Positions 45,601 to 64,000 of a stretch of DNA of 64,000 nt are shown piece after piece; position 1 is the first letter of the stretch, and the number at the start of each line of letters is the position of its first letter. The notes beneath the pieces are model-generated. The model was not told where the DNA came from, did no database searches, and saw nothing but the letters and a program-made list of their open reading frames with translations. Made by a program: the position numbers and the translations under genes. The DNA lies in contig NZ_JAAIXZ010000011.1 in the NCBI RefSeq assembly GCF_010894435.1, positions 248,001-312,000 of the forward strand. The letters run 5' to 3'. Origin of the DNA: Pyxidicoccus trucidator. Its GTDB lineage: Bacteria > Myxococcota > Myxococcia > Myxococcales > Myxococcaceae.

Positions 45601-46292
45601 AGACAGTCCGCCATCGCCTCCTCCAGCTCCGTGCGGGCCTCCGCCGCGTCGCCCACGGCGGCCGTGGCGGCACGCAGCCCCTCCTCGCGCAGCTTGCGGT
45701 AGACGGACACCAGCGCGGCCACCAGCCCGTCGGAGAAGCCCGAGCCGGAGAAGCCCAGCTCCTGGCACAGCTCGCGCACCTGCGCGTCGCCTTCCTCCAG
45801 CGCGTCCAGCACCACGCGCTCGCACACGTCCTGCACGAGGCTCGAGGCCTCCAGCTCGTCCAGCACCTCGAAGTTCGGGTCGATGCCCACCGCCGGAGGC
45901 GCGCGGCGCAGCAGCTGCCCGCAGAGCGAGTGGAAGGTGCCCACGGTGGCGCCGCCCAGCTCCTCGCGGAGCTGCCGCCACGCGTCCGGCAGGGGGAAGG
46001 GCTTGTCCAGCCGCTCCAGCGAGGCGCGCAGCTCCACCTCCTGGTCCTGCCGCGTGTCGCCCTGGGCCAGCCCGTCCAGGCGCTGGCGCACGCGCGAGCG
46101 CATCTCCGCGGCGGCCTTGTCCGTGAAGGTGAGCATGCACAGCCGCGACGGGCGCACCGCCGCGCCGGCCTCTCGCGCGCCCGCCAGCAGGTGCAGCGTC
46201 ATCGTCACCAGGCTGTACGTCTTGCCCGCGCCGGCGCCCGCCATCAGGGCGAGATTGCGCTCCAGCGCGAACTTGGAGGGCCCGCCGCTCAT
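42630..46292 (-). CDS. addA: AddA-type recombination helicase/nuclease subunit
   Basis: This UvrD-family helicase of 1220 residues processes double-strand-break ends for RecA with AddB. Walker A is AGAGAGKT near residue 20; motif II is VDEFQDTN, motif III GDRKQSIYEFRGAD, motif V IHRAKGLEWP and motif VI YVALTRARD. The C-terminal RecB-like nuclease domain keeps the first acidic residue (GEVD, D1099) and the Lys (K1115), but the usual DYK reads SLK, so a catalytic Asp is missing (S1113). Cys964, Cys1202, Cys1207 and Cys1213 form a C...C-x4-C-x5-C pattern like an iron-sulfur nuclease clasp. The ATG at 46292 overlaps the addB stop (ATGA) with GGAGGAGGG upstream. Confidence 0.9.
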   Translation of the reverse strand: MSGGPSKFALERNLALMAGAGAGKTYSLVTMTLHLLAGAREAGAAVRPSRLCMLTFTDKAAAEMRSRVRQRLDGLAQGDTRQDQEVELRASLERLDKPFPLPDAWRQLREELGGATVGTFHSLCGQLLRRAPPAVGIDPNFEVLDELEASSLVQDVCERVVLDALEEGDAQVRELCQELGFSGSGFSDGLVAALVSVYRKLREEGLRAATAAVGDAAEARTELEEAMADCLRLCSEARGLDAKSEWSRLLGGLERALNGMTAENFGTGERFPWMRACFKADGRNHARLSKGAAAPVRELYWRVFGKSDGSVPRLDDAWAAWRTAPFEATFRALLGQVEERHDTELSRRNVFDFTSLLVKSRDLLRDFPEFRRQVQERIGALLVDEFQDTNRLQLELVLLLAERREDGPRELPPGADVVTALPLEPAFLCAVGDRKQSIYEFRGADVSVFSVLAKKIEDEGGTRGFLQHNRRSVPGLLSFFNRTFAGVLVAADAQAPRPFEVVYVPEEDDLSAVRPSLTEAPVVERLQLEEADTAADLRWLDADSVARRLRCLLAPGAPPSVEREDGEGLRPARGGDVAMLFRTFTHLEVYRQALIRHGVPHRVLRGRGFYGAQEVLDLASLLALLADAEDSLAFAAVLRSPLVGLSDASLFLLAGDQPLSLLSSRLADSQVLESLPERERLRLERFLGALPALRRERDRLGVRELLLSALDATGYREALAGSPYAEQASANVEKLLSLASRRDERGTGGCVAFARELRMLAENDPTEAQADLLDAGDPRAVQLLTIHRAKGLEWPIVVVPALGGRRRTTSARAHFERSHGISLRPWVPDSLDDDYTSKRFDAVRAELKAREDAEYRRLLYVALTRARDMLVLSGGAEPRAGKDSWWHLIDARLEVDAELRELVDDLDVDSLPPPADPEPPGPEAMARAGARVEAALLRVRGAEAREAPSTAVSSVSAVQDFLACPRRFHYLHRLGLRGAPWPWEAPPRGAPPLVEPDGWLPAESPESLTLRLLRGVDLRLAAAPDVEPAERRAHLDGLLRDAGVLPDEAGMEEVLGTVERFLGMELARRMAVSPSQAIHRGLSFVLPLDGGAALEGEVDLLWESPEGEAVVLSLKSGGRHPVGAAAYTHELAALELAARRMVREGVPVRVGVVFLGEPHPEPEWLAGAKGLEEAARRLARAVQALARGEVRGDWPGRERAACQALHCGFSEHCHPAPRAC

Positions 46293-49200
46293 CCGCCCTC
46301 CTCCGTCATGCGGCGCTCGGTAATCCGGCACACGGCGCGGAAGCCACACGTGCCGCAGTCCTGGGGCCGCGCGGCGAACCGGCCCTCGCGCAGGGTGTTC
46401 ACCAGCGACTCCACCGCGTTGGGCAGGTTGAGGCCGTTCTTCTCCGCCACCTGCGCGCGCACCTCGGGGTCCGTGGACAGCAGCTCGTCCACCTCCTGTG
46501 AGGAGACGACCTCGGACAGGTGGATGGTGGCGCCGGTGCGCAGCGAGAACCACGCCGCCTGCTTCGCCTCGCGGTGGCCGCTCTCGCGCGCCGCGAAGAG
46601 GTACAGCGGGAGCTGGAAGTCCGACGTGAGGAGCTTCTCCTTCAGCGCGCGCTTGTCCAGCCGCCCTGACTTGTAGTCGATGACGCCCACGTCGCCGCCC
46701 GCCATGTCGAGCCGGTCAATCTTCCCCTCGAAGACGATGGCGTCCCCGCCAATCGGGAGGATGACGTTGCGCCATTTGTCATCCTGGGCGGCGGGGCCGA
46801 ACTGCAGCTCGAAGCCCTCCGGCACCAGCTTCTCGAAGGGCAGGCCGCGCCGCTCGTCCACGAGGATGCGCCGGGCCATCGCGCGGGCGCGCTCGTGCGC
46901 CAGCTTCCACAGCTCCCGGTGGCCCACGTGGTGGAACTTCTCGAAGTGCTTGATGGCCGTCTTGAGCGCCCCCTCCAGCACCTCGTCCGGGACTTCCTCC
47001 GGCGCCTTGCCCAGCAGGCCATGCTCCTTGAGCGCCTTGAACACCTCCTCCACCACCTGGTGCCAGAAGGTGCCGCGCCCGCGCGCGTCGAACTCCTCGC
47101 CCGGCTGGTCCGGCTCCGCCACCTTGAGACCGTACGTGAGGAAGCCCTGGAAGCCGCAGTTGCCGAAGCGCGCCAGCGCCGACGCGGACAGCGGGCGGGT
47201 GAGGTCGAAGCGGAACGTCTCGCGCAGGGACTCGCGCAGCGTGTTCGCATCCACCGAGCCCGAGTACGGCCCCGGCTGCCGGTTCGGGTCCCCGAAGAAG
47301 AACAGGCGCTCCATCTCCACCAGCGACAGCTCGCGCGCGCCCGCGTACCAGAGCTCCTTGTCGAACTGGCGCCGCAGCAGCGGGGCCGCCGCGTCCGGCT
47401 CGGTGACGCGCAGCTTCGGCTGCGCCAGCGCCTCCAGCGCCACGCAGCGGCGCAACTCCGCCTCGGTGAGCACCTCGTCCAGCGGCGGAATGGGCGGCAG
47501 CGAGCGCGGCGTCCACTTCAGCGCGGTGAGCCGGCGCACCTCCTCCAGGAACGCGGAGGGCACCTGCTCCTGTCCGCCCGACGCCTCCATGGCGAAGGAC
47601 AGGCTCACCGTCTCCTCGGCGACGGCCAGCGCGCTGGCGAACAGCAACCGGTCCTCGGTGAGGCGCCACGCCGCGCGGTCCTCGAACTCGCCGCCCGTGA
47701 GGCGGAACACGTCGCGGCCCAGGTGCTGGTTGAGCGCCGAGCGCTCCGCGTCCGCCAGCAGCGGAGACGGCGCGTCCCGCCCGGGGAAGCGGCCCTCCGT
47801 CATGCCCGCGAGGAAGAGGTGGCGGAAGGTGCGGCCCGGCAGCTCGGCCACGTCGAGCACCTCCACCGCGGCGCTCCGGGGCCCCCGGGGCGGCAGGTGG
47901 GCGTCCGCCATGGCATCGCGCAGCCACCGGCCGAAGGTGCGCCGACGCAGCTTCGGTCCGCCCCCCACGGCCTTCATCATCCGCAGCAGCCCCTGCACGC
48001 GCTGGCGGAGCGCCTCGCGCGCGGCCTCGTCGCGCGCCCGGGCATCCACCGCCCGGGCCCCCAGGCCGCCTTCCTCGCGCGGCTCCAGCGGCCCTTCGGT
48101 GTCCACCAGGCCCAGCCGCTCCACCGCGTGCCACCATGCGGTGAGCAGCTCCTCGGCGGTGCCCTCCTCGGGGATGCGGCGGCAGAAGTCCACCAGCAGC
48201 ATGCAGCGCTCGCGCAGCACCTGCACGGCGTGGACGCGGTTGCCGGCCTCCTTCTTCTGCGCGCCATAGAGCGCGAGCAGCCGCCGGGCCAGCCCGTCCA
48301 GGCGCACGTCATACGCGCCACGGTTCCGGTGCGCGCCCAGCCGGTCATCCCGCACGGCGGCGAGGGCGAAGAGGCTCGCGGGCGCGTCCGGGCCGCCGCG
48401 TGACAGCGTGGGGGCATAGCGGCTGCCCACCAGCTCCGCCACGCGCTCGGCGGGAAAACCATCCTCCACCAGCGTGGGCAAATCCAACGCCAGGCGCACC
48501 GGGCCGGCCAGGGCCAGCGGCTCGCCCCAGGGCAGGCGCACCGGCACGCCCAGCTCGCCCAGCGTCTCCGCGAGCCACCCGGCCTCCGGCCCCAGCTCCC
48601 TCAGGGCGATGACGATGTCCCCGGGCGAGGCCCCCTCGGCGATGAGCCGCCGCACGTCGCGGGCGACGAGGCGCGCCTCCTCGCGGGCCGTGGCCGCGCT
48701 CCACATGCGCAGGGCGGGCACCGCGTCCTTCAGCACGTCGCGCGGGGCGTTCGGCGAGAAGAGGTGGCGGCCCAGGTCGATGAGGGGCCGGCCCTCGAAG
48801 GTGACGTCCGCCTTGAAGAGGTCCACGTGCGGCATCGTCTCGCCGCGGTTCTCGAAGGCGCGGAAGAGGGACGCCAGCGCCGCGTCCGCCACCGGCGAGC
48901 CGCCCACCGGCGTCTCCACCCGCAGCGTCACCCGGCGCGACTCGCACGCCGCCGCCAGCGCCAGCAGCAGCTCCAGTCCGGAGGGCCGCACGTCGTAGAT
49001 GCCATGCAGCACGAGCGCGCCCACGCCCTCCCAGCCCACCGGCCACGCGCCCCGGCCCAGGGCCTCGCGGGCACCGCGCATGATGTCCTCGCGGTCCGCC
49101 AGCCCCAGCTCCGCCATCTTCTGCTCGTAGAGGTGGTACAGGCGGGCGAGCACCCGTCCCCTCTTCTGCCTGTCCGCCGGCAGCACCTCCACGGCGTCCT

Positions 49201-49528
49201 GCAGCTCGCGCGCGGTGAGGCGGCCGGCCTTCAAGTCCAGCACCACCTCCAGCGCGGCGCGCGCGAAGGCGGGCTCACGGACGTACTCGCCGAACGGAGT
49301 GGGCCCCAGGGCCTGCCCCAGCGAGGCCACCACCGCTCGCGCGGCCACCGCCGGGCACGGGCGCCGGTTCAGCTCGCGCGCGCCGCCCAGGCCCTGCAGC
49401 AGCTCGTCCCAGGTGAGCAGGTGCGTGCCCACCGCCAGGCCGCCCGCCTCCCCCAGGGCCCGCAGCGCGGCCTGTCGCCGGCCGGCATCGGGGAACACGT
49501 GGAGGGTGCGGCCAGGACGGGGGGGCAT
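46289..49528 (-). CDS. addB: AddB-type nuclease subunit (PD-(D/E)XK, Fe-S)
   Basis: This is the AddA partner of 1079 residues. The N-terminal part is a helicase-like fold with no intact Walker A (VFPDAGRRQAAL), as in several AddB proteins. The C-terminal nuclease has an intact RecB motif (GKIDRLD...VIDYKSG). The four cysteines that clasp the nuclease with a 4Fe-4S cluster are visible: Cys791 in FGNCGFQ, and Cys1058-x2-Cys1061-x5-Cys1067 at the C-terminus. This subunit should therefore supply the cutting activity of the complex. It is the first gene of the addB-addA pair. Confidence 0.9.
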   Translation of the reverse strand: MPPRPGRTLHVFPDAGRRQAALRALGEAGGLAVGTHLLTWDELLQGLGGARELNRRPCPAVAARAVVASLGQALGPTPFGEYVREPAFARAALEVVLDLKAGRLTARELQDAVEVLPADRQKRGRVLARLYHLYEQKMAELGLADREDIMRGAREALGRGAWPVGWEGVGALVLHGIYDVRPSGLELLLALAAACESRRVTLRVETPVGGSPVADAALASLFRAFENRGETMPHVDLFKADVTFEGRPLIDLGRHLFSPNAPRDVLKDAVPALRMWSAATAREEARLVARDVRRLIAEGASPGDIVIALRELGPEAGWLAETLGELGVPVRLPWGEPLALAGPVRLALDLPTLVEDGFPAERVAELVGSRYAPTLSRGGPDAPASLFALAAVRDDRLGAHRNRGAYDVRLDGLARRLLALYGAQKKEAGNRVHAVQVLRERCMLLVDFCRRIPEEGTAEELLTAWWHAVERLGLVDTEGPLEPREEGGLGARAVDARARDEAAREALRQRVQGLLRMMKAVGGGPKLRRRTFGRWLRDAMADAHLPPRGPRSAAVEVLDVAELPGRTFRHLFLAGMTEGRFPGRDAPSPLLADAERSALNQHLGRDVFRLTGGEFEDRAAWRLTEDRLLFASALAVAEETVSLSFAMEASGGQEQVPSAFLEEVRRLTALKWTPRSLPPIPPLDEVLTEAELRRCVALEALAQPKLRVTEPDAAAPLLRRQFDKELWYAGARELSLVEMERLFFFGDPNRQPGPYSGSVDANTLRESLRETFRFDLTRPLSASALARFGNCGFQGFLTYGLKVAEPDQPGEEFDARGRGTFWHQVVEEVFKALKEHGLLGKAPEEVPDEVLEGALKTAIKHFEKFHHVGHRELWKLAHERARAMARRILVDERRGLPFEKLVPEGFELQFGPAAQDDKWRNVILPIGGDAIVFEGKIDRLDMAGGDVGVIDYKSGRLDKRALKEKLLTSDFQLPLYLFAARESGHREAKQAAWFSLRTGATIHLSEVVSSQEVDELLSTDPEVRAQVAEKNGLNLPNAVESLVNTLREGRFAARPQDCGTCGFRAVCRITERRMTEEGG

Positions 49529-53869: not shown

Positions 53870-54544
53870 CTCCTTCGCGCCTGGAGGTGGCGTGCCTGTG
53901 CCTCGTGGCCCGGAGCCTTCCGCACGCGCCAGGGCGCGCCAGAGAGCATCGGCCGAGGACTGCACTTCGACTTCACCCACCCTGGCGCCCTGCCGGGCCG
54001 CGCGCGCCAGCTCCAACAGCGTGCCCCACACCAGCCCCTCGCCCACCAGGCTGCAGCCCGGTGTCAGCACTCCCTCCTTCTCGCCCTTCTCCAGCACCTC
54101 GCGCACCAGTGCGCGGGTGGCTCCTCCGTTCGACTGTGGCAGGAGAGCACCCGGAATCCGGGGCCCGGGGGCAGGGGCGGACTGCGCCCCATACTCATGC
54201 GCATGCCAGTGCAGGAAGGTGAAGCCGAAGAGGTCCGGATGCCGCAGCGCCCACCCGACCAGTTCCCACCAGAAGGCGTAGAAGGCCCGGCCGAAGTCCA
54301 CGCCCGGCTGCACATGCTTCATGAAGAAGGCGACGTCGGCCCGGTAGCTGAGTTCCCTCTCGGCGTAGTCGCGCACGGCCAGCGCCAGGCCCTGCTTGCT
54401 GCCGTAGTGCCGGTACAGCGTGCCCACCGAGAAGCGCATGGCCCGCGCCAGCTCGCAGGCCTGCACGTTGTCGTAGCCCCGCCGCGCCAGCAGCGCCGCC
54501 GCCGCGTACATGGCCTCGGCGTGCATCATCTCCAGAATCCACAT
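53870..54544 (-). CDS. TetR-family regulator without an in-frame stop
   Basis: The N-terminal HTH (about residues 8-55: AAALLARRGYDNVQACELARAMRFSVGTLYRHYGSK) and a helical ligand domain to about residue 215 are typical of TetR. The coordinates given here end where homology-like sequence stops; the frame itself has no stop until 52673, running antisense through the whole SMP-30-like gene (623 codons). The tail past about residue 225 is Pro/Arg/Gly-rich with no domain. The gene has probably lost its stop by mutation or frameshift; a one-base shift would end at a TGA around 53811-53813. A GAACGTTC-centred palindrome lies 37 bp upstream. Confidence 0.6.
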
Positions 54545-54580
54545 CCCCTGCCCCTCCCCGCCCCCAGACGGCTGCCGGCC

Positions 54581-54598
54581 GGAATGAACGTTCCTTCC
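54581..54598. promoter_or_regulatory. TetR-type operator candidate
   Basis: An 18-bp near-perfect palindrome (16 of 18 positions symmetrical, centred on GAACGTTC) sits 37 bp before the TetR start. This is the expected position and shape for an autoregulatory TetR operator. Confidence 0.6.
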
Positions 54599-54719
54599 GC
54601 CAGTACCTGTCTACCGGGAGGGTCTGACATGGGCCGAGCGCACGACCGTGGAGCAACAGCCCCACTTCGGACAGCCAGGCGGTGGGACTCCGTTCGACAT
54701 CGCTGGGGAAATGGCGTCA

Positions 54720-54862
54720 GGCAGGCTTCGCGGCACCGTGGGGACACTTCCACGTCTGGAATCAAGCGGCCGGGATGTCACCGCCCGCTCGCGGCACCGT
54801 GGGACGCAACGGCGTTCGGAGTCAGGCGGCCTGGATGTCGCCGCTTGCTCGCGGCACCGTGA
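54720..54862. repeat. 60-bp tandem repeat at cyclase 3' end
   Basis: The element GCGGCACCGT starts at 54730, 54791 and 54851 (spacing 61 and 60 bp). The last copy codes for the C-terminal residues of the adenylyl cyclase; the others lie beyond its stop. Each intervening unit carries GGATGTC and a CGGC-rich segment, so the units are duplicated copies of the gene's 3' end. Confidence 0.75.
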
Positions 54863-56324
54863 AGAGGCTCATCGGCTCCGCGACGCCCTTGAGGGAGACC
54901 GACTCCACCTCCTGGACCTCCAGCGTACCCGTGAGCCGCCGGGCCACCTCCGCGCTGAAGAGGAGCGAGGGCCGTGGCTCGCGGGCGTGGCTCTCGATGC
55001 GCGCGGCCACGTTGACGGCGTGGCCGATGACGGTGAACTCCAGCCGCTCCGCGCTGCCCAGATAGCCCGCGACGACCTCGCCCGCGTGGATGCCGATGCC
55101 CGCCCGCAGGCACAGCCCCCGCTCGGCGAGTCGCGCATTGTAGCCCTCCAGGCGCTGCTGCATCTCCCTCGCGGCGGCCACGGCGGACTCAGCCGGATTG
55201 CCCGTGCCCCCGGTGAGGCCGAAGACCGCCAGCACCGCGTCGCCGATGAACTTGTCCACCATGCCACCATGCTTCTGGATGGCGGCCACCATCTCCCCGA
55301 AGTAGCCGTTGAGCACCCCGATGAGGTCCTCCGGGGCGAGCGACTCGGACAGGGGCGTGAAGTCGCGCAGGTCACTGAAGAGCAGGACGACATCGCGCCG
55401 CTGTCCGCCCAGCTCCGTGGCGCGTCCCGGGCGCGCGAACTTCTCGATGAACTCGTTGGCCACCTGCGGCGAGACGAAGCGGCCAAAGGCCTCTCGGATG
55501 CGCTCCCGCAGGCGGAGCCCGTCCGCCATGTCGTTGATGCCCAGGGCGACGAGGCCCAGCTCGTCCGGACGGCTCGTGGCCGCGTGCGGATGGAGGTCTC
55601 CGCCGCCGACCCGGCGCACCGCCTCCAGCAGCCGCTCCGAGTCCCTCCGCAGGCTGCGCCCGTAGGCCAGGGCCGCGACGAGCGCCGCCACGGTGATTGC
55701 CGCGGCGAGCAGCATGGCCTCGCGCATGGACTGGTCGAGCACGACCTCGAGCTGGGGCGCCCCCAGCATGTGCAGGTCCCCCACCATGCGCGCCAGGGTG
55801 AGCAGCAGCACCACCACGGGGATGGTGGTGAAGAGGACGTAGCCCTCCATGAGCCGGTGGCCCAGCCGCTCACGCAGCTGCGCCGCGGGAGAGGCCGTCG
55901 ACGACTGGAGCTGCTCGAAGAGGAGGTACTCCACCTGGGCGACGAGGCCCCCGCCGAGCAGCCAGTACCCGACGCCGAGCTTCACGTGGCTGAAGAAAGG
56001 GAACGTCGGGTACCACAAGAGATGCAGCCCGAAGGCCACGAAGCCCGTCACCACCCAGGTGGCGACCGACAGCAGATAGGCCTGCCGGGCCTGCGTGCGG
56101 CGCCCGTCCGGCTCCGGCGCAAGGTGGAACACCCCTTCGCGCAGGAGGATGTGGACCGCGGAGAGGGCCAGGACGGTGTGAAGCAACACGTGCGGGGGCA
56201 GCGCGCAGATGTAGGTGCAGACCAGCCTCGCGTAGAGGTACGTGAACGCGCCTACCAGGAGCGTTCCTCCATGCAGCGCGAGGCGGACCTTGAGCGGAAA
56301 CCGGGCGGAGGAAGGGGTCGTCAT
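54822..56324 (-). CDS. Membrane class III adenylyl/guanylyl cyclase
   Basis: This 500-residue signalling enzyme has six membrane helices in the N-terminal 215 residues. A HAMP-like segment (about 215-275) and a class III cyclase domain (about 290-480) follow. Both metal-binding Asp residues are present (LFSDLRDFT near residue 315 and DKFIGDAVLAVFG near 360), and the KFIGD Lys that contacts the base is kept. The residue normally Asp or Thr in TVIGDxVN is His here (VIGHAVNVAAR), so adenine selection may differ. The transition-state Asn and Arg (NVAAR) are present. Start: ATG at 56324. Confidence 0.9.
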   Translation of the reverse strand: MTTPSSARFPLKVRLALHGGTLLVGAFTYLYARLVCTYICALPPHVLLHTVLALSAVHILLREGVFHLAPEPDGRRTQARQAYLLSVATWVVTGFVAFGLHLLWYPTFPFFSHVKLGVGYWLLGGGLVAQVEYLLFEQLQSSTASPAAQLRERLGHRLMEGYVLFTTIPVVVLLLTLARMVGDLHMLGAPQLEVVLDQSMREAMLLAAAITVAALVAALAYGRSLRRDSERLLEAVRRVGGGDLHPHAATSRPDELGLVALGINDMADGLRLRERIREAFGRFVSPQVANEFIEKFARPGRATELGGQRRDVVLLFSDLRDFTPLSESLAPEDLIGVLNGYFGEMVAAIQKHGGMVDKFIGDAVLAVFGLTGGTGNPAESAVAAAREMQQRLEGYNARLAERGLCLRAGIGIHAGEVVAGYLGSAERLEFTVIGHAVNVAARIESHAREPRPSLLFSAEVARRLTGTLEVQEVESVSLKGVAEPMSLFTVPRASGDIQAA

Positions 56325-56630
56325 GGTGCGTTAGGCCCCGAGACTCTAGGCCATCTACCGGCAGCGCGTGGGTCCACCTCTCTCGACTGCCTGCTCCACG
56401 GGCCTGACTTCCGGGCCTTCTCCCAACGCCCCAACGTGCTCGCGGCTGATCAACGTTGTCGCAGTGCCGCGCTTCCGGTCCGCCAACGTGCGCACAGCGC
56501 AGCGTGAACCCACCGTGCCAGCGGGCCCCCGCCCTCGTGTGTACGCTGCATCCCGGTGTGAGCTGGCTCCCCGCGTCGAGCCGCCGCCGGAAGGTGGAAC
56601 GGTGAGGCGGGAGGACCCTATGCTCCGACC
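56325..56630. other. Non-coding gap between cyclase and PAP2 genes
   Basis: In 306 bp I see no convincing coding frame. A perfect 8-bp palindrome CAACGTTG lies at 56451-56458, with a related half-site CAACGT at 56432-56437. A purine-rich GGGAGGA tract precedes the PAP2 start. Nothing else stands out. Confidence 0.35.
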
Positions 56631-57536
56631 GTGCGCTCCTCTCCCACCGCTGTCGCGATTGCCCTCCTGCTGGCCCTCGCCCCGCTGTCCCGCGCCTCCG
56701 CCCAGTCGGGCACGGATGAGCCCCGGCTCCACGAGCTCCGCTTCGACTGGGCCCGGGACGGCGCCATCACCGGCGTGGCCGGCGCGCTGTGGATTTCCAG
56801 CGAGACCTTCCTCAAGGACGACCTGGCGCCGGCCCAGTGCCGCTGGTGCGACCGCGCTCCGGACGGCACCGACACGCTCAACCGCCTGGACCGCTGGGGC
56901 CGAGGGCTCGCCGGAGAGACAGAGCAGTCGCGCAGCCGGGCCAACACTTGGAGCAACATCCTGGGCTTCGGCGTGGTCCCCGCCAGCGTGCTGGGCCTCC
57001 AGTACGCGGTGGGCCACGGCTCGGGCGCGCCGAGCCGGTTCTTCACCCAGGACGCCACCATCATCATCCAAAGCGCGGTGCTCTCCTCGCTGGCCAACCA
57101 GACGGTGAAGTTCATCGTCGGCCGCGAGCGCCCCTTCGTGCACCAGCTCCCCGAGGACCAGAAGGGCCTCACCGCGCACCCGACCGACAACAACCTCTCG
57201 TTCTACAGCGGCCACACCAACCTGATGTTCGCGATGGTCGTCTCCGCGGGCACCGTGGCGGCGATGCGCGGCTATGAAAACCAGGCGTGGATCTGGGCCG
57301 TGGGGCTGCCGCTCGCCACCTCGGTGGGCCTGCTGCGAATGGGCGCGGACAAGCACTACCTCAGCGACGTGGCCACCGGCGCCCTGTTGGGCTCGGCATT
57401 CGGCCTGGCCGTGCCGCTGCTGCTGCATGGCCGCACGGGCACGACGGAGCCCGCCGCCTCCCGCGTCGGCGTCGGCGGCGTGCGGATGGTGCCCATGGCC
57501 GGAGCCCGCATGGCGGGAATCTCGGGCAGCTTCTGA
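56631..57536 (+). CDS. PAP2-family phosphatase, exported/membrane
   Basis: This 301-residue protein has a signal-like N-terminus (about residues 1-24, ending ASAQ). The three PAP2 phosphatase motifs are visible: KFIVGRERP (K-x6-RP), YSGHTN (the SGH triad) and LRMGADKHYLSD (R-x5-H-x3-D). The family dephosphorylates lipid pyrophosphates and phosphatidates outside the membrane. No partner is adjacent. It uses a GTG start (56631); a nearby ATG is out of frame. Confidence 0.88.
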   Translation: MRSSPTAVAIALLLALAPLSRASAQSGTDEPRLHELRFDWARDGAITGVAGALWISSETFLKDDLAPAQCRWCDRAPDGTDTLNRLDRWGRGLAGETEQSRSRANTWSNILGFGVVPASVLGLQYAVGHGSGAPSRFFTQDATIIIQSAVLSSLANQTVKFIVGRERPFVHQLPEDQKGLTAHPTDNNLSFYSGHTNLMFAMVVSAGTVAAMRGYENQAWIWAVGLPLATSVGLLRMGADKHYLSDVATGALLGSAFGLAVPLLLHGRTGTTEPAASRVGVGGVRMVPMAGARMAGISGSF

Positions 57537-57537
57537 G

Positions 57538-58446
57538 TCAGTACCCGGCGCCCGCCGGAGTCCCCTCGCCATCACTGGCCTGCGCCGGCAGGCAGGACAT
57601 GTCCCAGCGCTGACCGGTCTCCCACGCCACGGCGCCCGACGTGCCCCAGCCGGCGCGGACCGCCTCGCGACCCTCGTACTCCAGCCAGAAGACGGACTCC
57701 TGCGGCCGGGCCGCCTGGTCCAGACAGGCGATGCGCGTGGCCGGCCGGCCCGGCCCCTCCAGCGTCACCGCGAAGGCCTTGTGCGAGTGGCCACACAGCA
57801 GCCACCGGGGATGCACCGCGTCCACCAGCCGCCGCGTCACCGGGTTGCCAATCCAATACGAGGGCAGCGGCCGGGGCGGCACCGGGTTCTCCTCGCGCGC
57901 CCGCTGGACGATGCCCCGGGGCCACTCGTGCACCAGCATCAGGTCCACGTCGCGCAGCGAGGACAGCCGCTCCACCTCCGCCGTGCGGAAGTAGCCGGCC
58001 TGCTTCACCGTGTCCTGGGTGGTGGGCCGCTTCAGCGGCTGCTCGATGAAGCGTGGCGCGTGGATGCCGGACAGGTACCCCACCCGCAGCCCGCGCAGCT
58101 CGCGCAGCCCCGCGCGGCCCAGGTAGAACACGTCCGGGGCCAGCTCGCCGCCGTCCTGCAAGTCGTGCAGCGCCTCGAAGTCCTCGTTGTTGCCGCCAAT
58201 GAAGAACAGCGGCCGCTTCACCCGGCGCACCCCGTCCGCGTACTCCGCGAACTCGGCCGGCATGAGGCGCTTGGCCGCCTTGCGCCGCTGGTCATCCGGG
58301 TGGCGGAAGGCCTCCACGTCCCCCACCGCCAGCACCAGGTCCACGCGGCGGCCACGCGCCTGCTCCAGCGCGTCCAGCCACGTCTCCACGCGGTGGAAGC
58401 GGCCATGGATGTCACCCACGGCCGCGACAAGGAGGGATTCCGGCAT
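57538..58446 (-). CDS. Dbr1-like calcineurin-type metallophosphoesterase
   Basis: This 302-residue phosphoesterase has the motifs GDIHG (11-15), GDVEAF (42-47), GGNNE (84-88), LVHEWPRGI (His173) and CGHSH (His220, His222). The region between motifs and the segments HEWPRGI and IGNPVTRRLV...LLCGHSHKAFAV resemble eukaryotic RNA lariat debranching enzyme Dbr1 and Drn1/CWF19-type proteins more than ordinary bacterial phosphatases. In Dbr1 the third motif is GGNHE; here the His is Asn, so the catalytic acid may be lost or supplied elsewhere. The ATG at 58446 starts with MPESLL, preceded by GGGTGAG. Substrate unknown. Confidence 0.8.
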   Translation of the reverse strand: MPESLLVAAVGDIHGRFHRVETWLDALEQARGRRVDLVLAVGDVEAFRHPDDQRRKAAKRLMPAEFAEYADGVRRVKRPLFFIGGNNEDFEALHDLQDGGELAPDVFYLGRAGLRELRGLRVGYLSGIHAPRFIEQPLKRPTTQDTVKQAGYFRTAEVERLSSLRDVDLMLVHEWPRGIVQRAREENPVPPRPLPSYWIGNPVTRRLVDAVHPRWLLCGHSHKAFAVTLEGPGRPATRIACLDQAARPQESVFWLEYEGREAVRAGWGTSGAVAWETGQRWDMSCLPAQASDGEGTPAGAGY

Positions 58447-58634
58447 CTCACCCGGAAGGCTGCACGGCCCTCCCCCGCCCTGTCGAGTCATCTTTGCCCG
58501 CATGCAGCCAATGGCTGACAAATCCTCTCGACTGCCCCGGGACCCGCCGGGCGTCCCGGAGGGGAGAAATGACCGGGGGCGCCCCGCCTCTCGGCGTGAG
58601 CGCCCCCCGGGAAGCCGCCTGACTGAAGCGGGGC

Positions 58635-61577
58635 CTAGCAGCCCAGCGGGTACGTCACCTCCACCATGGCGCCGGGCGCGGGGGCCGCGGTGCGCTCGAA
58701 GAGGATGGAGTTGGTGCCCGCGTCATACTCCCAGCCGGACGTCACCTGGACGCCGTCCACCACCACGACAATCCGCGACGGGTCCGCCGGCTCCTCGGTC
58801 AGCCGGAACCGCCGGTTGGGGCCGAAGGCGCTGTTGGACAGCTTCTCCAGGGACGCGGCCCAGTTGGGCGTGCAGATGCTCTCCACCGTGCCCCCCGTGG
58901 CCTGGGCCAGCTGGATGTAGCGGCTGCCCGAGCTGCTGGAGGTGGGACAGGTGCCCAAGTCCAGCGGCCCCACAATGGCATTGATGCTCAGCTTCGACGG
59001 GTCATTGCCCTTCAGCGCCCGGAAGTACGTCTCGTAGAAGGGCACCGGCTGCGCGCTGAAGTCCTCCTCGTCCGTCAGGAAGATGATGGCCAGCTTGGCG
59101 TCCTCGCGCAGGAAGCCGCCGTTGCCGTCGTTGGCCAGCGCGGTGCGCGGGTCGTCCGCCTGGTAGATGAGCGGATCCGACAGCGCGCGCCAGGCCGCGT
59201 CCAGGCCCTGCTCGTTCCAGTGGCACACCCCCACCCGGGTGTTGCTGGCGAAGACGGCCGCCGCGTTGGGCGTGGACGGGGTGATGATGCGCGGGCGGCT
59301 GCCATCCACCGGGAACAGGCGGCCATTCTCACCGCCCTGCGCGCCCCCCGGGCACTCGGACCAGCCGCCCGGAGACGCGTCCAGGCCCGTCGTCGTCACG
59401 CCGATGCGGTAGTCCACCGCCGCCTGGTTCGCCGCGCTCAGGAAGGCCGCGAAGTTCTGCCCCAGGCTCTGCTGCTCCTCCATCATGGAGCCGGAGTTAT
59501 CCACCACGAAGAGCACGTCCACCTTCACCTCGGACTCCTGGAAGAAGCGGTCCGTCTGCTCCGCCTTCGACACGCCGCGGCCGATGAGGCCTGCCGTGTA
59601 CTCGGAGCCGTCGGGCAACGTGAAGCGCAGCGTGGCCGCGTCGTCACCGTCGTCCACCGGCTGGTAGGTGGCGGACAGGTGCACCCGGCTGCCCTGGGGA
59701 ATGGTGTGCGGGAAGCCCACCGCGCCAGTCACGGTGAACTCCGTGCCCACCTGCTCCAGCGCCATGCCCTCCACCCGCACCGGGCCGATGCAGTCATTGA
59801 TGGCGATGAGCTCGCGGGAGCGCGGGCCGCAGGACAGCTTGGTGACGCCGTAGTCCACCGTGGTGGGCTGCACCGCGAAGCAGCCCTTCACGCCCTCGCC
59901 AGACACTTCCACCAGGGGGTGGCCCGCCGTCGGGCTGTTCACCCACGCCTCGGCCAGGCCGGAGAAGGGCCCCTCCGCGTCCGGCTTGAAAATCACCACC
60001 AGCGTCGCCTTCCGCCCCGGCTCCAGCACGCCATTCTGCACGGGCAGGGCGGTGAAGGCCGCGTCCGAGCCCGGGACGAGCTGCATGGAGGCCAGGTAGC
60101 ACGCCTCCGAGCCGGTGTTGCGCACCGACACGCCGAGCGCCACCTGCGCGCCCACCGGGACCTTCCCGAAGCGCAGCCGCGGAGGAATGTCATACTGGCA
60201 GGGCTTGAAGACGCGGCCCTCGCCCGCCAGCGTCACCGCCTCCGTGGACGAGGCGGCGCGGGTGCGCACGGTGACGGCCAGTTGCCCCGCGCTGTGAGTC
60301 AGCAGGCCGACGCGCGGGCTGAAGGTGACGCCCACCAGCGTCGTCCCACCGGCCGGCACCGCCACGCTCGCGGGCGCCTGCGCCAGGGTGAAGAAGCCGC
60401 CCTGGAGCGTGTCCAGTTGCAGGTTGCTCACCAGCACCTCCTCCCGGCAGCGGTTGATGACCTGCACCTGGCGCGTGGCCGTCATGCCCTCCGCCACCAC
60501 GCCGAAGTCCACCTTCCGGGGGAGCACGGTGACGCAGGAGGTGCCACCCTCGCCCGCCAGCGACACCTTGGGGCCCGGCGCCGTCGTGCCCTGCTCGCGC
60601 ACGCCCACCTCCACCCGGCCGTCCCGCACCCGGCCCAGCGCCGCCGGAGTGAAGGCCACGCGCAGCTCCACCGCCGCGCCCGGCGCCAGCAGGCCGCCCG
60701 CCAGCACCGGCGCGTTCACCACCTTGAAGACGTCGCCGGGGTTGTCGAGGAAGCGCGCCCCGTCATAGCTCAGCGGCACCGTGCCCTGGTTGCGCACGGT
60801 GATGGACTGCTCCGCGGTGGCGCCCAGCGCCACGCGCCCGAAGTCCACGCGCAGCGGCGTCACCTCCAGCTTGGAAGCGACGCCCAGGCCGCTCAGCGCA
60901 ATCACCGCGGGCTCGCAGCCCTCGCACACCACCACGTGCAGCGCCGCCTCGGCGGAGCCCAGGCGCTTGGGGGCGTAGGCCACCGGCACCACGCGCTCCT
61001 CGCCCGGCGCCAGCGTGGAGGACTGGCCGGCGCCCGCGGAGAACTGGTCCGCGTCCGAGCCCTGGACGGACAGCACCAGCGGGCTCTCCACGTCCGAGGG
61101 GTTGCGCACCGTCACCTCGCGCATCTCCACCAGGCCCATGGCCACGTTGCCGAAGTCGAGCGCCGTGTCCGGCACCTCGACGAAGGCCTTCACGCCGCGG
61201 CCATTCACCGGCACCACGCCCTCCACCTCGGCGTCGGTGAGGATTTCCACCATGCCCTGCACCACGCCCTCCACCCGCGGCGTGAAGTGGACCTCAATCT
61301 CCTGCTCGCCACCGGCGGACAGGGTGAAGGGCTCGAAGGGGGGAATCACCACGTTGGGCACGCTGGAGACGGCGCCCTCCACGCGGTACGAGGCGCGACC
61401 ACCGTTGGCGATCTTCAGCTTGAACGACTTGGTGCGTCCCAGGGCCGAGGGACCGAACTCAATCATCTCCGGGCGGACCACGAAGGCGCTCTTCGCCTTC
61501 TGGGAAGACGGCCGCTCACACGCCACGCCCATCACCAACGCCGCCGCCACCCACGCCACCCACAGCGCCCTTCGCAT
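58635..61577 (-). CDS. Large VWA lipoprotein with choice-of-anchor D repeats
   Basis: This 980-residue lipoprotein has a signal with lipobox GVAC near residue 19. Five to six tandem immunoglobulin-like choice-of-anchor D modules (about residues 35-670) carry the repeated RVDFGxVxxG signature, for example DFGNVAMG, DFGRVALG, DFGVVAEG and RFGKVPVG. A von Willebrand A domain follows from about 690 with the metal site DNSGS (FVVDNSGSMMEE). A beta-rich C-terminal stretch ends in LGC. Such proteins are displayed on myxobacterial cells and bind partners or matrix. The start ATG at 61577 has GGGAGGT upstream. Confidence 0.88.
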   Translation of the reverse strand: MRRALWVAWVAAALVMGVACERPSSQKAKSAFVVRPEMIEFGPSALGRTKSFKLKIANGGRASYRVEGAVSSVPNVVIPPFEPFTLSAGGEQEIEVHFTPRVEGVVQGMVEILTDAEVEGVVPVNGRGVKAFVEVPDTALDFGNVAMGLVEMREVTVRNPSDVESPLVLSVQGSDADQFSAGAGQSSTLAPGEERVVPVAYAPKRLGSAEAALHVVVCEGCEPAVIALSGLGVASKLEVTPLRVDFGRVALGATAEQSITVRNQGTVPLSYDGARFLDNPGDVFKVVNAPVLAGGLLAPGAAVELRVAFTPAALGRVRDGRVEVGVREQGTTAPGPKVSLAGEGGTSCVTVLPRKVDFGVVAEGMTATRQVQVINRCREEVLVSNLQLDTLQGGFFTLAQAPASVAVPAGGTTLVGVTFSPRVGLLTHSAGQLAVTVRTRAASSTEAVTLAGEGRVFKPCQYDIPPRLRFGKVPVGAQVALGVSVRNTGSEACYLASMQLVPGSDAAFTALPVQNGVLEPGRKATLVVIFKPDAEGPFSGLAEAWVNSPTAGHPLVEVSGEGVKGCFAVQPTTVDYGVTKLSCGPRSRELIAINDCIGPVRVEGMALEQVGTEFTVTGAVGFPHTIPQGSRVHLSATYQPVDDGDDAATLRFTLPDGSEYTAGLIGRGVSKAEQTDRFFQESEVKVDVLFVVDNSGSMMEEQQSLGQNFAAFLSAANQAAVDYRIGVTTTGLDASPGGWSECPGGAQGGENGRLFPVDGSRPRIITPSTPNAAAVFASNTRVGVCHWNEQGLDAAWRALSDPLIYQADDPRTALANDGNGGFLREDAKLAIIFLTDEEDFSAQPVPFYETYFRALKGNDPSKLSINAIVGPLDLGTCPTSSSSGSRYIQLAQATGGTVESICTPNWAASLEKLSNSAFGPNRRFRLTEEPADPSRIVVVVDGVQVTSGWEYDAGTNSILFERTAAPAPGAMVEVTYPLGC

Positions 61578-61908
61578 AACGACCTCCCACCACGCCCTGG
61601 GACTTCGAATCCGTCGCCGCGCTGATCCACGGCTCCGGGGGTGGGCCCTCTGCAACCCGGGTGCCCGCGATTCCCGGGGCGAAGACGTCGGAAGGCCGAC
61701 GCGGCAAACCTCTGGCCTCCCTGGGAAAGGCGTCGCACCGCGTGTGGAACGACATTTCCCATTCACCCCGAAGGACTGAAATTCCTTCAGTAAGCGCGGG
61801 TAACACACGGACACCCTGGACGACCGGGTGGGGCAGCCAGCTTCACCGAGCCCCAAAAGGCGCTGGAGCTCCGAAGCTCCGGCGCGCTGGGCTCAGGGAC
61901 TCCGGTGC
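61578..61908. other. Non-coding gap with AT-rich inverted repeat
   Basis: This 331-bp gap lies upstream of the VWA lipoprotein and downstream of the EamA gene. It has no credible gene. An inverted repeat ACTGAA-N5-TTCAGT (61775-61791) lies in its most AT-rich part, about 200 bp before the lipoprotein start, and may be an operator. A terminator occupies its far end. Confidence 0.4.
61855..61884 (-). terminator. Intrinsic terminator after EamA gene
   Basis: On the minus strand GCGC-C-GGAGCT-TCGG-AGCTCC-A-GCGC is followed by CTTTT. The 6-bp inner and 4-bp outer stems with a T-run lie about 25 bp past the EamA stop. Confidence 0.65.
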
Positions 61909-62811
61909 TCAGGCGGCGGGGCGCGACGCGGGGGCCAACAGCCGCCCCACCACGCCGGTGCCCCACAGCACGCCGCCCACGCACACCAGCGCGCCGGTGA
62001 CGGCCAGCGGCGACACGGCCTCGCCCAGCAGCAGCGCGCCCATCACCCACGAGAAGGCGGGCGTGAGCTGGGTGGCCACGCCCCCCGCCGCGGCGGTGAC
62101 GTAGCCAAAGGCATACGTGAAGGTCATCTGCGCCACCACGGACGTCAGGCCCACGCCCAGCAGCGGCAGCACCACGTCCCACCCCAGCGGCCGCCAGTCC
62201 TGCACCGCGAAGGGCAGGCTGAAGAGGAGGCCGAAGAGACAGAAGGAGAGGAAGACGGTGGCCGAGTCCGTGTCGTGCCGCAGCGCCCGCACCACCACCA
62301 CCGCCGCGCCGCCCAGCACCGCGGAGCCCATGCCCGCCCACGCGCCCAGGCCCATCTCCAGCGAGGCGCCCCCGTCCATGGTGCTCCACATCACCAGGCC
62401 CGCGCCCAGCGTGGTGAGCGCCAGCCCGGCCAGCAGCGGCCCGGTGACGCGCTCGCGCAGGAAGAGCCAGCCGATGATGGCCGCGTAGATGGGCCAGCAC
62501 GCATTGAGGAGCACCGCCGGCCCCACCGTCATCCGGTCGATGGCGACGAAGTACAGGTAGACGGCCGCGCCGCCGAAGATGCCGCGCAGCGCCCACAGCG
62601 ACAGGCGTCCGTAGCGCGGCCGGCGTCCCAGCACGGGGAAGTAGACGGCCAGGAACAGCAGCCCGATGACGAAGCGGCCGGACGCCACCTGCCCGGGGGA
62701 CAGGCGGCCCGCCAGCAGGCGGGTGCACAGCGCCATCACCGAGAAGAGGAAGCTCGAGAAGATGAGCAGCGGGACACCGCGGTAGCGCTCCGGAAGGACC
62801 CAGCGGTTCAT
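61909..62811 (-). CDS. EamA/DMT-family transporter
   Basis: This 300-residue inner-membrane protein has ten predicted helices in two EamA repeats of five. The repeat signature is seen as FVAIDRMTVGPAVLLN in the first half and FGYVTAAAGGVATQL in the second. The family exports metabolites or drugs by proton exchange; the substrate is not predictable. The ATG at 62811 is chosen because the upstream in-frame stretch is not hydrophobic and has no homology-like features; its ribosome-binding site is weak. The gene is divergent from uvrA. Confidence 0.85.
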   Translation of the reverse strand: MNRWVLPERYRGVPLLIFSSFLFSVMALCTRLLAGRLSPGQVASGRFVIGLLFLAVYFPVLGRRPRYGRLSLWALRGIFGGAAVYLYFVAIDRMTVGPAVLLNACWPIYAAIIGWLFLRERVTGPLLAGLALTTLGAGLVMWSTMDGGASLEMGLGAWAGMGSAVLGGAAVVVVRALRHDTDSATVFLSFCLFGLLFSLPFAVQDWRPLGWDVVLPLLGVGLTSVVAQMTFTYAFGYVTAAAGGVATQLTPAFSWVMGALLLGEAVSPLAVTGALVCVGGVLWGTGVVGRLLAPASRPAA

Positions 62812-62989
62812 GGACGCCGCGCACCCTACAGGGAAACGCCTCCCCCGCCAGCCCCGCCCTGCCCGCCCGGCCGCCCACCTGCCACATGTGGGATGAGCGT
62901 TGAAACCCGGCGCGTTGAGCGTCATTCACTCCACCCGTGCGAGTTTCCACGCACCGGAACACCCATTCAGTGGTAAACGGCCGCCCATC

Positions 62990-64000
62990 ATGTCCGAGCC
63001 CGACGTCATCTCCCTCCGAGGCGCCAAGGAGCACAACCTCAAGAACGTCTCCCTGGACATCCCCAAGAAGAAGCTCGTCGTCTTCACGGGGGTGTCAGGG
63101 TCCGGCAAGAGCTCGCTCGCCTTCGATACGCTCTACGCGGAAGGCCAGCGTCGCTACGTGGAGAGCCTCTCCGCCTATGCCCGGCAATTCCTGGGGCAGA
63201 TGGAGAAGCCGAAGTACGACACCATCCGGGGACTGTCGCCCACCATCTCCATCGAGCAGAAGGCGGCCAGCAACAACCCCCGCTCGACGGTGGGCACCGT
63301 CACCGAGGTGCATGACTACCTGCGCGTGCTCTACGCCTCCATCGGCGTGCAGCACTGCCCCAACTGCGGGCGCAAGGTGGGCAAGCAGAGCGCGCAGCAG
63401 ATTGTGGAGGAAATCCTCAAGTCCCCCGCCGGCACCAAGCTGCAAGTCCTGGCGCCCCTCGTCACCAACCGCAAGGGCGAGCACAAGGAACTGCTGGCCG
63501 AGGCGCAGAAGCGCGGCTTCTCCCGCGCGCGCATCGACGGGGTGCTGAAGAGCCTGGAGGAGCGCATCGAGCTGGACAAGAAGTCCAAGCACGACATCGC
63601 GCTCGTCATCGACCGGCTGGTGCTCAAGCCCGACTTGAAGACGCGCCTCACCGACTCGGTGGAGACGGCGCTGCGCGAGGGCAAGGGCACCCTCATCGTC
63701 ACCGACGAGAAGGGCACCCCCGCCTCGGACCGCGTCATGTCCGAGCTCAACGCGTGCCCCACCTGCGGCCTGTCCTTCGGCGAGCTGACGCCCGCGTCCT
63801 TCTCCTTCAACAACCCGCTGGGCATGTGCACGGACTGCAACGGCCTGGGCACCAAGCCGGAGATGGACCCGGACCTCATCGTCCCGGACCCGTCCCGCAC
63901 CATCCGCGACGGCGCCATTGAGCCCTGGGCCAGCGGCATGAATCGCGGCGAGGGCTGGACGGCGGACTTCGTGGAGAGCCTGGCCAAGGCGTTCAAGATT
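62990..64000 (+). CDS. uvrA: Excinuclease ABC subunit A, N-terminal third
   Basis: Partial: 337 codons are visible, running off the right edge; the full protein is about 940 residues. This damage-recognition ATPase has the first Walker A GVSGSGKSS near residue 31, the RYVESLSAYARQFLGQM stretch near 57, the Q-loop region near LSPTISIEQKAAS, the first zinc cysteines in HCPNCG, and a further CPTCG...CTDCNGLG zinc module near 255-280. It works with the UvrB and UvrC encoded near 23-27 kb in this window. Start: ATG at 62990. Confidence 0.95.
   Translation, partial: MSEPDVISLRGAKEHNLKNVSLDIPKKKLVVFTGVSGSGKSSLAFDTLYAEGQRRYVESLSAYARQFLGQMEKPKYDTIRGLSPTISIEQKAASNNPRSTVGTVTEVHDYLRVLYASIGVQHCPNCGRKVGKQSAQQIVEEILKSPAGTKLQVLAPLVTNRKGEHKELLAEAQKRGFSRARIDGVLKSLEERIELDKKSKHDIALVIDRLVLKPDLKTRLTDSVETALREGKGTLIVTDEKGTPASDRVMSELNACPTCGLSFGELTPASFSFNNPLGMCTDCNGLGTKPEMDPDLIVPDPSRTIRDGAIEPWASGMNRGEGWTADFVESLAKAFKI

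Follow-up and report, generated by a model that had tools for sequence, protein, structure and literature searches.

Gene A of Pyxidicoccus trucidator encodes a predicted metallophosphoesterase of 302 residues. As judged from sequence and fold comparisons, it is a relative of the lariat-debranching enzyme Dbr1 but not a Dbr1, nor is it metal-dead like CWF19L1 (Drn1), and it forms a subfamily of a bacterial Dbr1-like family that is named by none of the libraries searched. Our leading reading, to which we give a probability of roughly 0.4, is that A acts as a two-metal phosphoesterase on DNA or RNA-DNA ends in repair, and not as a dedicated retron enzyme. The gene lies on the minus strand at positions 57538–58446 of the window, by which we mean the whole 64,000-nucleotide stretch of contig NZ_JAAIXZ010000011.1 that was analyzed. 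We use “A” for this gene and its orthologues, and “B” for one further relative in the same genome; this genome (12.67 Mb, 136 contigs) holds one such additional relative, with 37% identity.

Cleavage of 2′,5′ branch bonds is generally regarded as a eukaryotic function. Bacteria make such bonds, in msDNA and in group II intron lariats, and msDNA was first found in this group of organisms. A Dbr1-like family in prokaryotes, one branch keeping the His and another complete in metal ligands but His-less, occurring in an msDNA-bearing group, makes two questions testable: whether there is a bacterial debranchase, and where Dbr1 and Drn1 originated. Subfamily A might also add a new end-processing factor to uvrA, addAB, and recJ. 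No bacterial Dbr1-like protein is described in the titles and abstract openings of the open-licence PMC papers listed by the searches, and two phage papers among them name Dbr1 only as an example of its superfamily.

The open reading frame begins with ATG at 58446 and its stop codon ends at 57538; a TTG at 58521 is a possible alternative start, but the aligned A proteins start at the ATG. The five motifs listed in the first-pass annotation are all present in this confirmed frame, and the case is stronger than it was first stated: GDIHG (with D12 and H14), GDVEAF (D43), GGNNE (N86 and N87), HEWPRGI (H173), and CGHSH (H220 and H222). The patterns GNNED, H[ED]WPRG, and GH[SQ]H each occur in all 39 A proteins compared, which were taken one each from 39 of the 69 A-bearing genomes. 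Values of dN/dS against 12 orthologues are 0.22–0.44, and A is, by this measure, under purifying selection. Given the PDB E-values reported below, the dN/dS values, and the invariance of the motifs in 39/39 proteins, the motif set in A is not a product of chance. In one genome (G100:C1:5535150-5536051), the A gene was matched in two overlapping frames and may be frameshift-broken or reflect an assembly error; this genome was counted as A-bearing and is absent from the 39 compared proteins. A sigma-70 promoter scan of 57300–58900 found none, and no RNA family was found with Rfam at gathering scores in 54000–63000.

Profile searches and structure prediction both place A nearest to Dbr1, then to CWF19L1. 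Using phmmer against the PDB, A matched Entamoeba Dbr1 at 2.3e-24 and CWF19L1 at 7.4e-9, with all others at 0.25 or worse, and a profile built from 13 A proteins gave 6.9e-28 for Dbr1, 9.8e-12 and 1.3e-4 for CWF19L1, and 0.52 for the next match. The corresponding values for B were 4.2e-29, 4.3e-4, and 0.26. A structure model of A (mean pLDDT 87.8, from an alignment of 56 proteins; residues 287–302 are under 50) aligned with Dbr1 at Z 29.3 over 252 residues (2.4 Å) and with CWF19L1 at Z 23.6 and 22.0, followed by aq_1956 (Z 18.6) and purple acid phosphatases (near 17). Foldseek with the same model returned Dbr1 at 2e-19, human CWF19L1 at 2e-16, and LpxH as the next family at 5e-7. For the model of a B-type protein (L056, mean pLDDT 94.3), Z was 32.2 with Dbr1, 24.8 and 22.9 with CWF19L1, and 18.7 with the next match. 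The Dbr1/Drn1 affinity proposed in the first-pass annotation is therefore borne out, standing far above that to any other metallophosphoesterase in both sequence and fold searches.

These searches do not assign A firmly to any nucleotide or UDP-sugar phosphatase family. Only the generic Metallophos model (PF00149, 1.4e-13) exceeded the Pfam cut-off for A; the six proteins scanned (A, B, and four relatives) matched generic Pfam phosphoesterase models only, and no NCBIfam model reached its cut-off in any of them. Named bacterial phosphoesterase families (YfcE, LpxH, and others) were considered for A and rejected, with no curated-family match above cut-off; the YfcE model, for example, scored 15 bits against a cut-off of 56. 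Two further metallophosphoesterase profiles, PADLOC PDC-S10 and PHROG 1649, matched A (0.0041 and 7.2e-8, respectively) and B (3.8e-9 and 1.1e-18), but distantly. Membership of a defence system was set aside, the PDC-S10 match to A being weak.

We mapped the Entamoeba Dbr1 residues named in PMC4176325 (all PMC papers are cited here from excerpts) onto 39 A, 62 B-type, four group C, two CWF19L1, and three Dbr1 sequences; the map left out near-copy and fragment loci and some close B copies, and used all 39 A proteins. The seven metal ligands of A (D12, H14, D43, N86, H173, H220, and H222) are invariant (39/39). Two of them lie in GDIH (residues 11–14, 58405–58416, on the minus strand like all parts of A given here), where A has Asp at the position of Dbr1 Cys14 in 39/39 proteins. 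In GGNNE, N86 is a metal ligand and N87 occupies the place of the catalytic His91 of Dbr1 (58186–58191; Asn at both in 39/39). The motif and residue map locate H173 in HEWPRG (57913–57930), and H220 and H222 in GHSH (57781–57792). Residues 126–154 (57985–58071) are equivalent to the lariat-recognition loop, which is given as residues 130–158 of Entamoeba Dbr1 (PMC4176325), and end at R154, the counterpart of Arg158, which is kept in 39/39 A proteins. The lariat-loop stretch has 31 residues in A, as in Entamoeba, but its length discriminates little, since it has 25 to 34 residues in B-type proteins and 27 in group C.

Entamoeba Dbr1 (PDB 4peh, 5k77) is the best match of A in sequence and fold and shares with it the metal ligands other than Cys14, the loop length, and Arg158. 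In contrast to Dbr1, A has not only Asp for Cys14 and Asn for His91, but also Arg for Tyr64 (39/39), lacks the C-terminal domain (Entamoeba 262–354; there are no helices beyond the core of A), and does not keep the loop residues that touch RNA in Dbr1 (K134, F136, F155, and H156); it is also bacterial and lies near DNA-repair genes. Where Dbr1 has the tyrosine at the branch base, A carries a basic run, R55, K56, K59, and R60, invariant in 13/13 proteins, which may bind phosphate. The excerpt of PMC4176325 describes the Cys of the first motif as absolutely conserved in Dbr1, with C14A and C14S failing complementation, and both Cys14 and the C-terminal domain as required by Entamoeba Dbr1 in a yeast complementation test; Tyr64, which belongs to the residue set of that paper, sandwiches the branch-point base, and the 2′ leaving group receives its proton from the catalytic His of GNHE (PMC10470207).

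Because Dbr1 carries Cys in its first motif (PMC4176325 and PMC10470207, as excerpted), GDIHG is the ordinary phosphoesterase form; the first-pass annotation was right that A has it, but not in counting it as a mark of Dbr1. Its observation that the GNHE His is replaced by Asn holds in 39/39 A proteins, and the same replacement occurs in both CWF19L1 sequences. CWF19L1 (PDB 8ro2, 8ro1), the second-best match of A, differs from it in having a longer chain (538 and 533 aa), with a C-terminal part beyond the phosphoesterase domain where the 302 residues of A have no further Pfam domain, and in having lost most metal ligands, whereas A keeps all seven. With these ligands kept and Cys14, His91, and Tyr64 replaced, A lacks the residues that define a Dbr1, yet it is not metal-dead in the manner of Drn1.

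The paralogue B (L002:1489-2325; G000:C6:38560-39315) carries GNHE, HDWPSG, and GHLH. It also keeps the Dbr1 segment EADL..M..P.KY..LGDF, and it shares about 35–37% identity with A. B-type proteins have Asp at position 14 (62/62), His at 91 (62/62), and, in 52 of 62, Tyr at 64. The bacterial GNHE Dbr1-like proteins, B and its relatives, therefore have the same fold as A but, unlike A, keep His91 and mostly Tyr64, and B is on these residues a better candidate debranchase than A. Its occurrence is patchy: with up to 15 candidates per genome scored, B was found in at least 30 of 156 genomes, all 30 of which also have A. The 77 loci with B-type relatives come from Myxococcota, Acidobacteriota, Planctomycetota, Cyanobacteriota, Actinomycetota, Pseudomonadota, Chloroflexota, Lentisphaerota, others, and two archaeal assemblies. 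A DEAD-box RNA helicase gene follows B in its own genome and in five relatives (6/97 loci), and one is also present at L053. Across 66 loci analyzed with a rough gene caller, no shared neighbour of B-type genes beyond generic families appeared in more than four; the generic ones were ABC ATPases (10/66) and kinase-like proteins (6/66), the latter named by eye. In Pleionea sp. CnH1-48 (L084:3271-6819), an RNA ligase gene, a gene for a protein with an AAA_33 kinase and an HD motif (the latter seen by eye), a second RNA ligase gene, and a Dbr1-like gene follow one another, an operon-like run that resembles a cassette for RNA repair to which a Dbr1-like gene belongs. Among the 97 loci, these ligases were matched at 1e-6 only there (L084 and L138, which are the same place), a threshold that distant ligases would escape.

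We took the surveyed family as Myxococcaceae and the phylum as Myxococcota, as inferred from named relatives. In the phylum, A is carried by 69 of 156 genomes with a completeness of 90% or more and by 71 of 195 when the limit is set at 40%; three distant matches (G003, G011, and G135; group C) were not counted. It occurs in every sampled genome of 12 of the 23 family genera and in none of the other 11, as well as in one genome of another family (51% identity). Being present in every sampled genome there, A is inherited as a core gene in these 12 genera. A search of 198 Acidobacteriota genomes yielded six matches, all of 149–169 bits and thus B-like, whereas A scores 441 bits or more; for other phyla, the search for A covered 14 genomes in each of which a relative had been found before, so that A may occur there too. 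A phage origin of A was rejected, a tblastn search of 50,697 phage records having returned nothing at 1e-5.

In the window, an addB-like gene for a PD-(D/E)XK nuclease of 1079 aa (46289–49528, minus strand; Pfam PDDEXK_1, 3.4e-35) is followed by other genes, then by a PAP2-type phosphatase gene (56631–57536, plus strand) convergent with A, A itself, a gene for a HYDIN/ASH-repeat protein upstream of A (58635–61856, minus strand; HYDIN/ASPM-like Ig repeats in Pfam), an EamA-type transporter gene (61909–62925, minus strand; assigned, like PAP2, by Pfam), and the 5′ part of uvrA (62900–64000, plus strand; Pfam UvrA_inter and UvrA_DNA-bind), which runs off the window. Both uvrA and addB are conserved neighbours. 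Across 12 genera, with a thirteenth A-bearing genus (g77) left out, one to five loci per genus show uvrA no more than 10 kb from A in 11 genera and an addB-like gene no more than 12 kb from it in at least seven; the addB count is a lower bound because 12–20 kb were examined in most loci. In the remaining five genera there was no addB in the 12–20 kb examined, and in genus g10 neither uvrA nor addB lies within 20 kb. The HYDIN/ASH-repeat gene lies close to A in nine of these 12 genera (g1, g3, g5, g6, g8, g9, g10, g17, and one lineage by position only), and its product has a VWA-like part near its end, by eye. A single terminator-like stem lies at 58574–58586 (0.2 expected by chance), and the HYDIN/ASH-repeat gene is perhaps a transcription unit separate from A. 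In one outlying lineage (L036, genome G129), the start of A overlaps the stop codon of a recJ-like gene by four bases, ATGA; this gene (L036:4152-6787) encodes DHH, DHHA1, and RecJ_OB domains. The recJ-A pair is suggestive, because branched RT-DNA is resistant to RecJ until DBR1 removes the branch (PMC8989520, in excerpt).

Phylogenetic trees were calculated in a quick version with 83 rows (19 of 77 fetched loci were dropped as near-copies or fragments, together with some close A and B copies) and a careful version with 59 rows (24 of the 83 dropped); both are to be read in light of their long branches and of only five eukaryotic sequences, two of them CWF19L1. In both, A is a single clade on a long stem (support 100 in the quick tree, 100/99 in the careful one). 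In the quick tree, A falls within the bacterial sequences and away from CWF19L1 and Dbr1 with support of 99; however, constraining A to group with CWF19L1 improved on that tree by 14 log units (p-AU 0.77). For the careful tree, the same grouping had a p-AU of 0.48, the constrained tree being 0.5 worse, and a grouping of A with Dbr1 had p 0.23; neither grouping is rejected by these values. Among the 83 sequences, the best bacterial match of human CWF19L1 is an A protein (47.0 bits; human Dbr1, 46.0), whereas Caenorhabditis elegans CWF19L1 scores 46.5 bits with actinobacterial members and 25.7 with A. Eukaryotic Dbr1 groups with an archaeal protein, L124, with moderate support (82 in the quick tree, 91/90 in the careful tree). 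The gene for this Dbr1-like protein (L124:5989-6732, archaeal assembly SI037S2_bin4) is near a run of ribosomal-protein-like genes.

The first-pass annotation had suggested that A could process or turn over msDNA or other branched nucleic acid. Retrons are indeed there: the source genome encodes two RTs of retron type XIII (L005 and L006) and two other RTs (L003 and L004), one of which, on the contig of the window, lies by a group II maturase domain. A is not beside any of them; the retron-type RTs are on other contigs, and on the contig of A itself about 99 kb separate it from the closest RT, whatever its type. We counted a retron RT wherever the retron RT profile matched at E 1e-30. By genome, co-occurrence with A was strong, both in the phylum (61/69 genomes with A vs. 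14/87 without, p 1e-20) and in the family (61/68 vs. 6/18, p 3e-6), but these counts repeat a few large genera in which A is near-universal. By genus (majority state), the association was 7/12 vs. 3/11 (Fisher p 0.21), with five genera having A and mostly no retron RT and three having a retron RT without A. Eight A genomes have no match to the profile at E 1e-30, including G129, which carries the recJ operon. For B in the family, the counts were 30/30 vs. 37/56 without B (p 9e-5), in which genera are repeated likewise and the B counts are lower bounds. The comparison across Myxococcota thus supports the suggestion by genome and not by genus; co-occurrence neither shows nor excludes a link between A and retrons, the genome counts favouring the earlier suggestion. 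Group II introns were also considered as a lariat source and rejected, as the maturase domain was not associated with A (22/69 with vs. 18/87 without) or B (8/30 vs. 32/126).

The reading we prefer, processing of nucleic-acid ends in repair, draws on the Dbr1-type fold, the kept metal site, purifying selection, the uvrA/addB/recJ neighbourhood, and two precedents, the effect of DBR1 and RecJ described above and a metallophosphoesterase gene of bacteria that keeps its place next to the gene of a nucleic-acid helicase (PMC8301817, in excerpt). A would be a cytosolic protein that binds a phosphate of nucleic acid where DNA ends or RNA joins DNA and hydrolyzes it with metal-activated water, without the His that protonates a ribose 2′-O leaving group. 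Such a step, by a housekeeping enzyme acting as an end-cleaning or structure-specific nuclease or phosphatase, may let exonucleases such as RecJ or AddAB proceed. Against this, gene order shared inside a single family may simply have been inherited and carry no functional meaning, only one genome has the recJ operon, and g10 has neither uvrA nor addB in the 20 kb examined; loss of the general-acid His may leave A with weak or no catalysis, and the Pleionea operon and the DEAD-box helicase beside B point to RNA, not DNA, for the wider family. It is possible, if doubtful, that A instead hydrolyzes a small molecule, such as a nucleotide, cyclic nucleotide, nucleotide-sugar, or other phosphoester. 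The generic Metallophos match, the missing C-terminal domain, and a two-metal site that is complete but lacks the GNHE His, as also in some small-molecule members of the superfamily (LpxH and YfcE), would suit this, but the YfcE model falls well short of its cut-off, LpxH gives no better than 0.25 in the sequence search and trails Dbr1 by far in fold, and A has DNA-repair genes in its neighbourhood.

We consider it unlikely that A debranches or trims msDNA or other 2′,5′-branched RNA-DNA from the host retrons, exposing a 5′ end to RecJ. The affinity to Dbr1, a loop of lariat-loop length with its Arg in 39/39 proteins, the two type XIII RTs with the by-genome counts, and the recJ operon read with PMC8989520 (in excerpt) all argue for such a role; the genus counts, the distance from RT genes, the eight A genomes without a retron RT match (the recJ-operon genome among them), and the absence of the catalytic His, the Cys, and the C-terminal domain argue against a special link to msDNA. 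A similarly low probability attaches to A as a binding or scaffolding protein related to a true debranchase, standing to an active partner B as Drn1/CWF19L1 does to Dbr1. The His-to-Asn change common to A and CWF19L1, the human CWF19L1 match, the p-AU values of 0.77 and 0.48, and the presence of A in all 30 B genomes are consistent with such a pair. However, A keeps the seven ligands of which CWF19L1 has lost most, B is unmatched in 39 of the 69 A genomes (its count being a lower bound), C. elegans CWF19L1 is closer to actinobacterial members, and the quick tree separates A from CWF19L1 with support of 99, A with Dbr1 having p 0.23 and the branches being long. A bolder version, which we regard as very improbable, is that myxobacteria hold counterparts of a whole lariat-turnover pair, an active B and a His-less, Drn1-like A, which would free branched or 5′-blocked nucleic acid, msDNA included, for RecJ or AddAB, the eukaryotic pair having descended from a prokaryotic one.

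B-related proteins also occur in phage, viral, and plasmid sequences. At 1e-3, 82 phage records (72 from Mycobacterium, seven from Streptomyces, and three from Rhodococcus phages) encode a B-related metallophosphoesterase, with about 27% identity among the 20 matches listed, e.g., in the Mycobacterium phages Optimus and Baka. One viral contig in IMG/VR encodes a B-type relative (29%), and a plasmid search with B gave five distant matches. A record labelled Comamonas sp. KCTC 72670 (L063) contains a typical myxobacterial B, 64% identical to B of the source genome, which may be explained by mislabelling of the record or by transfer.
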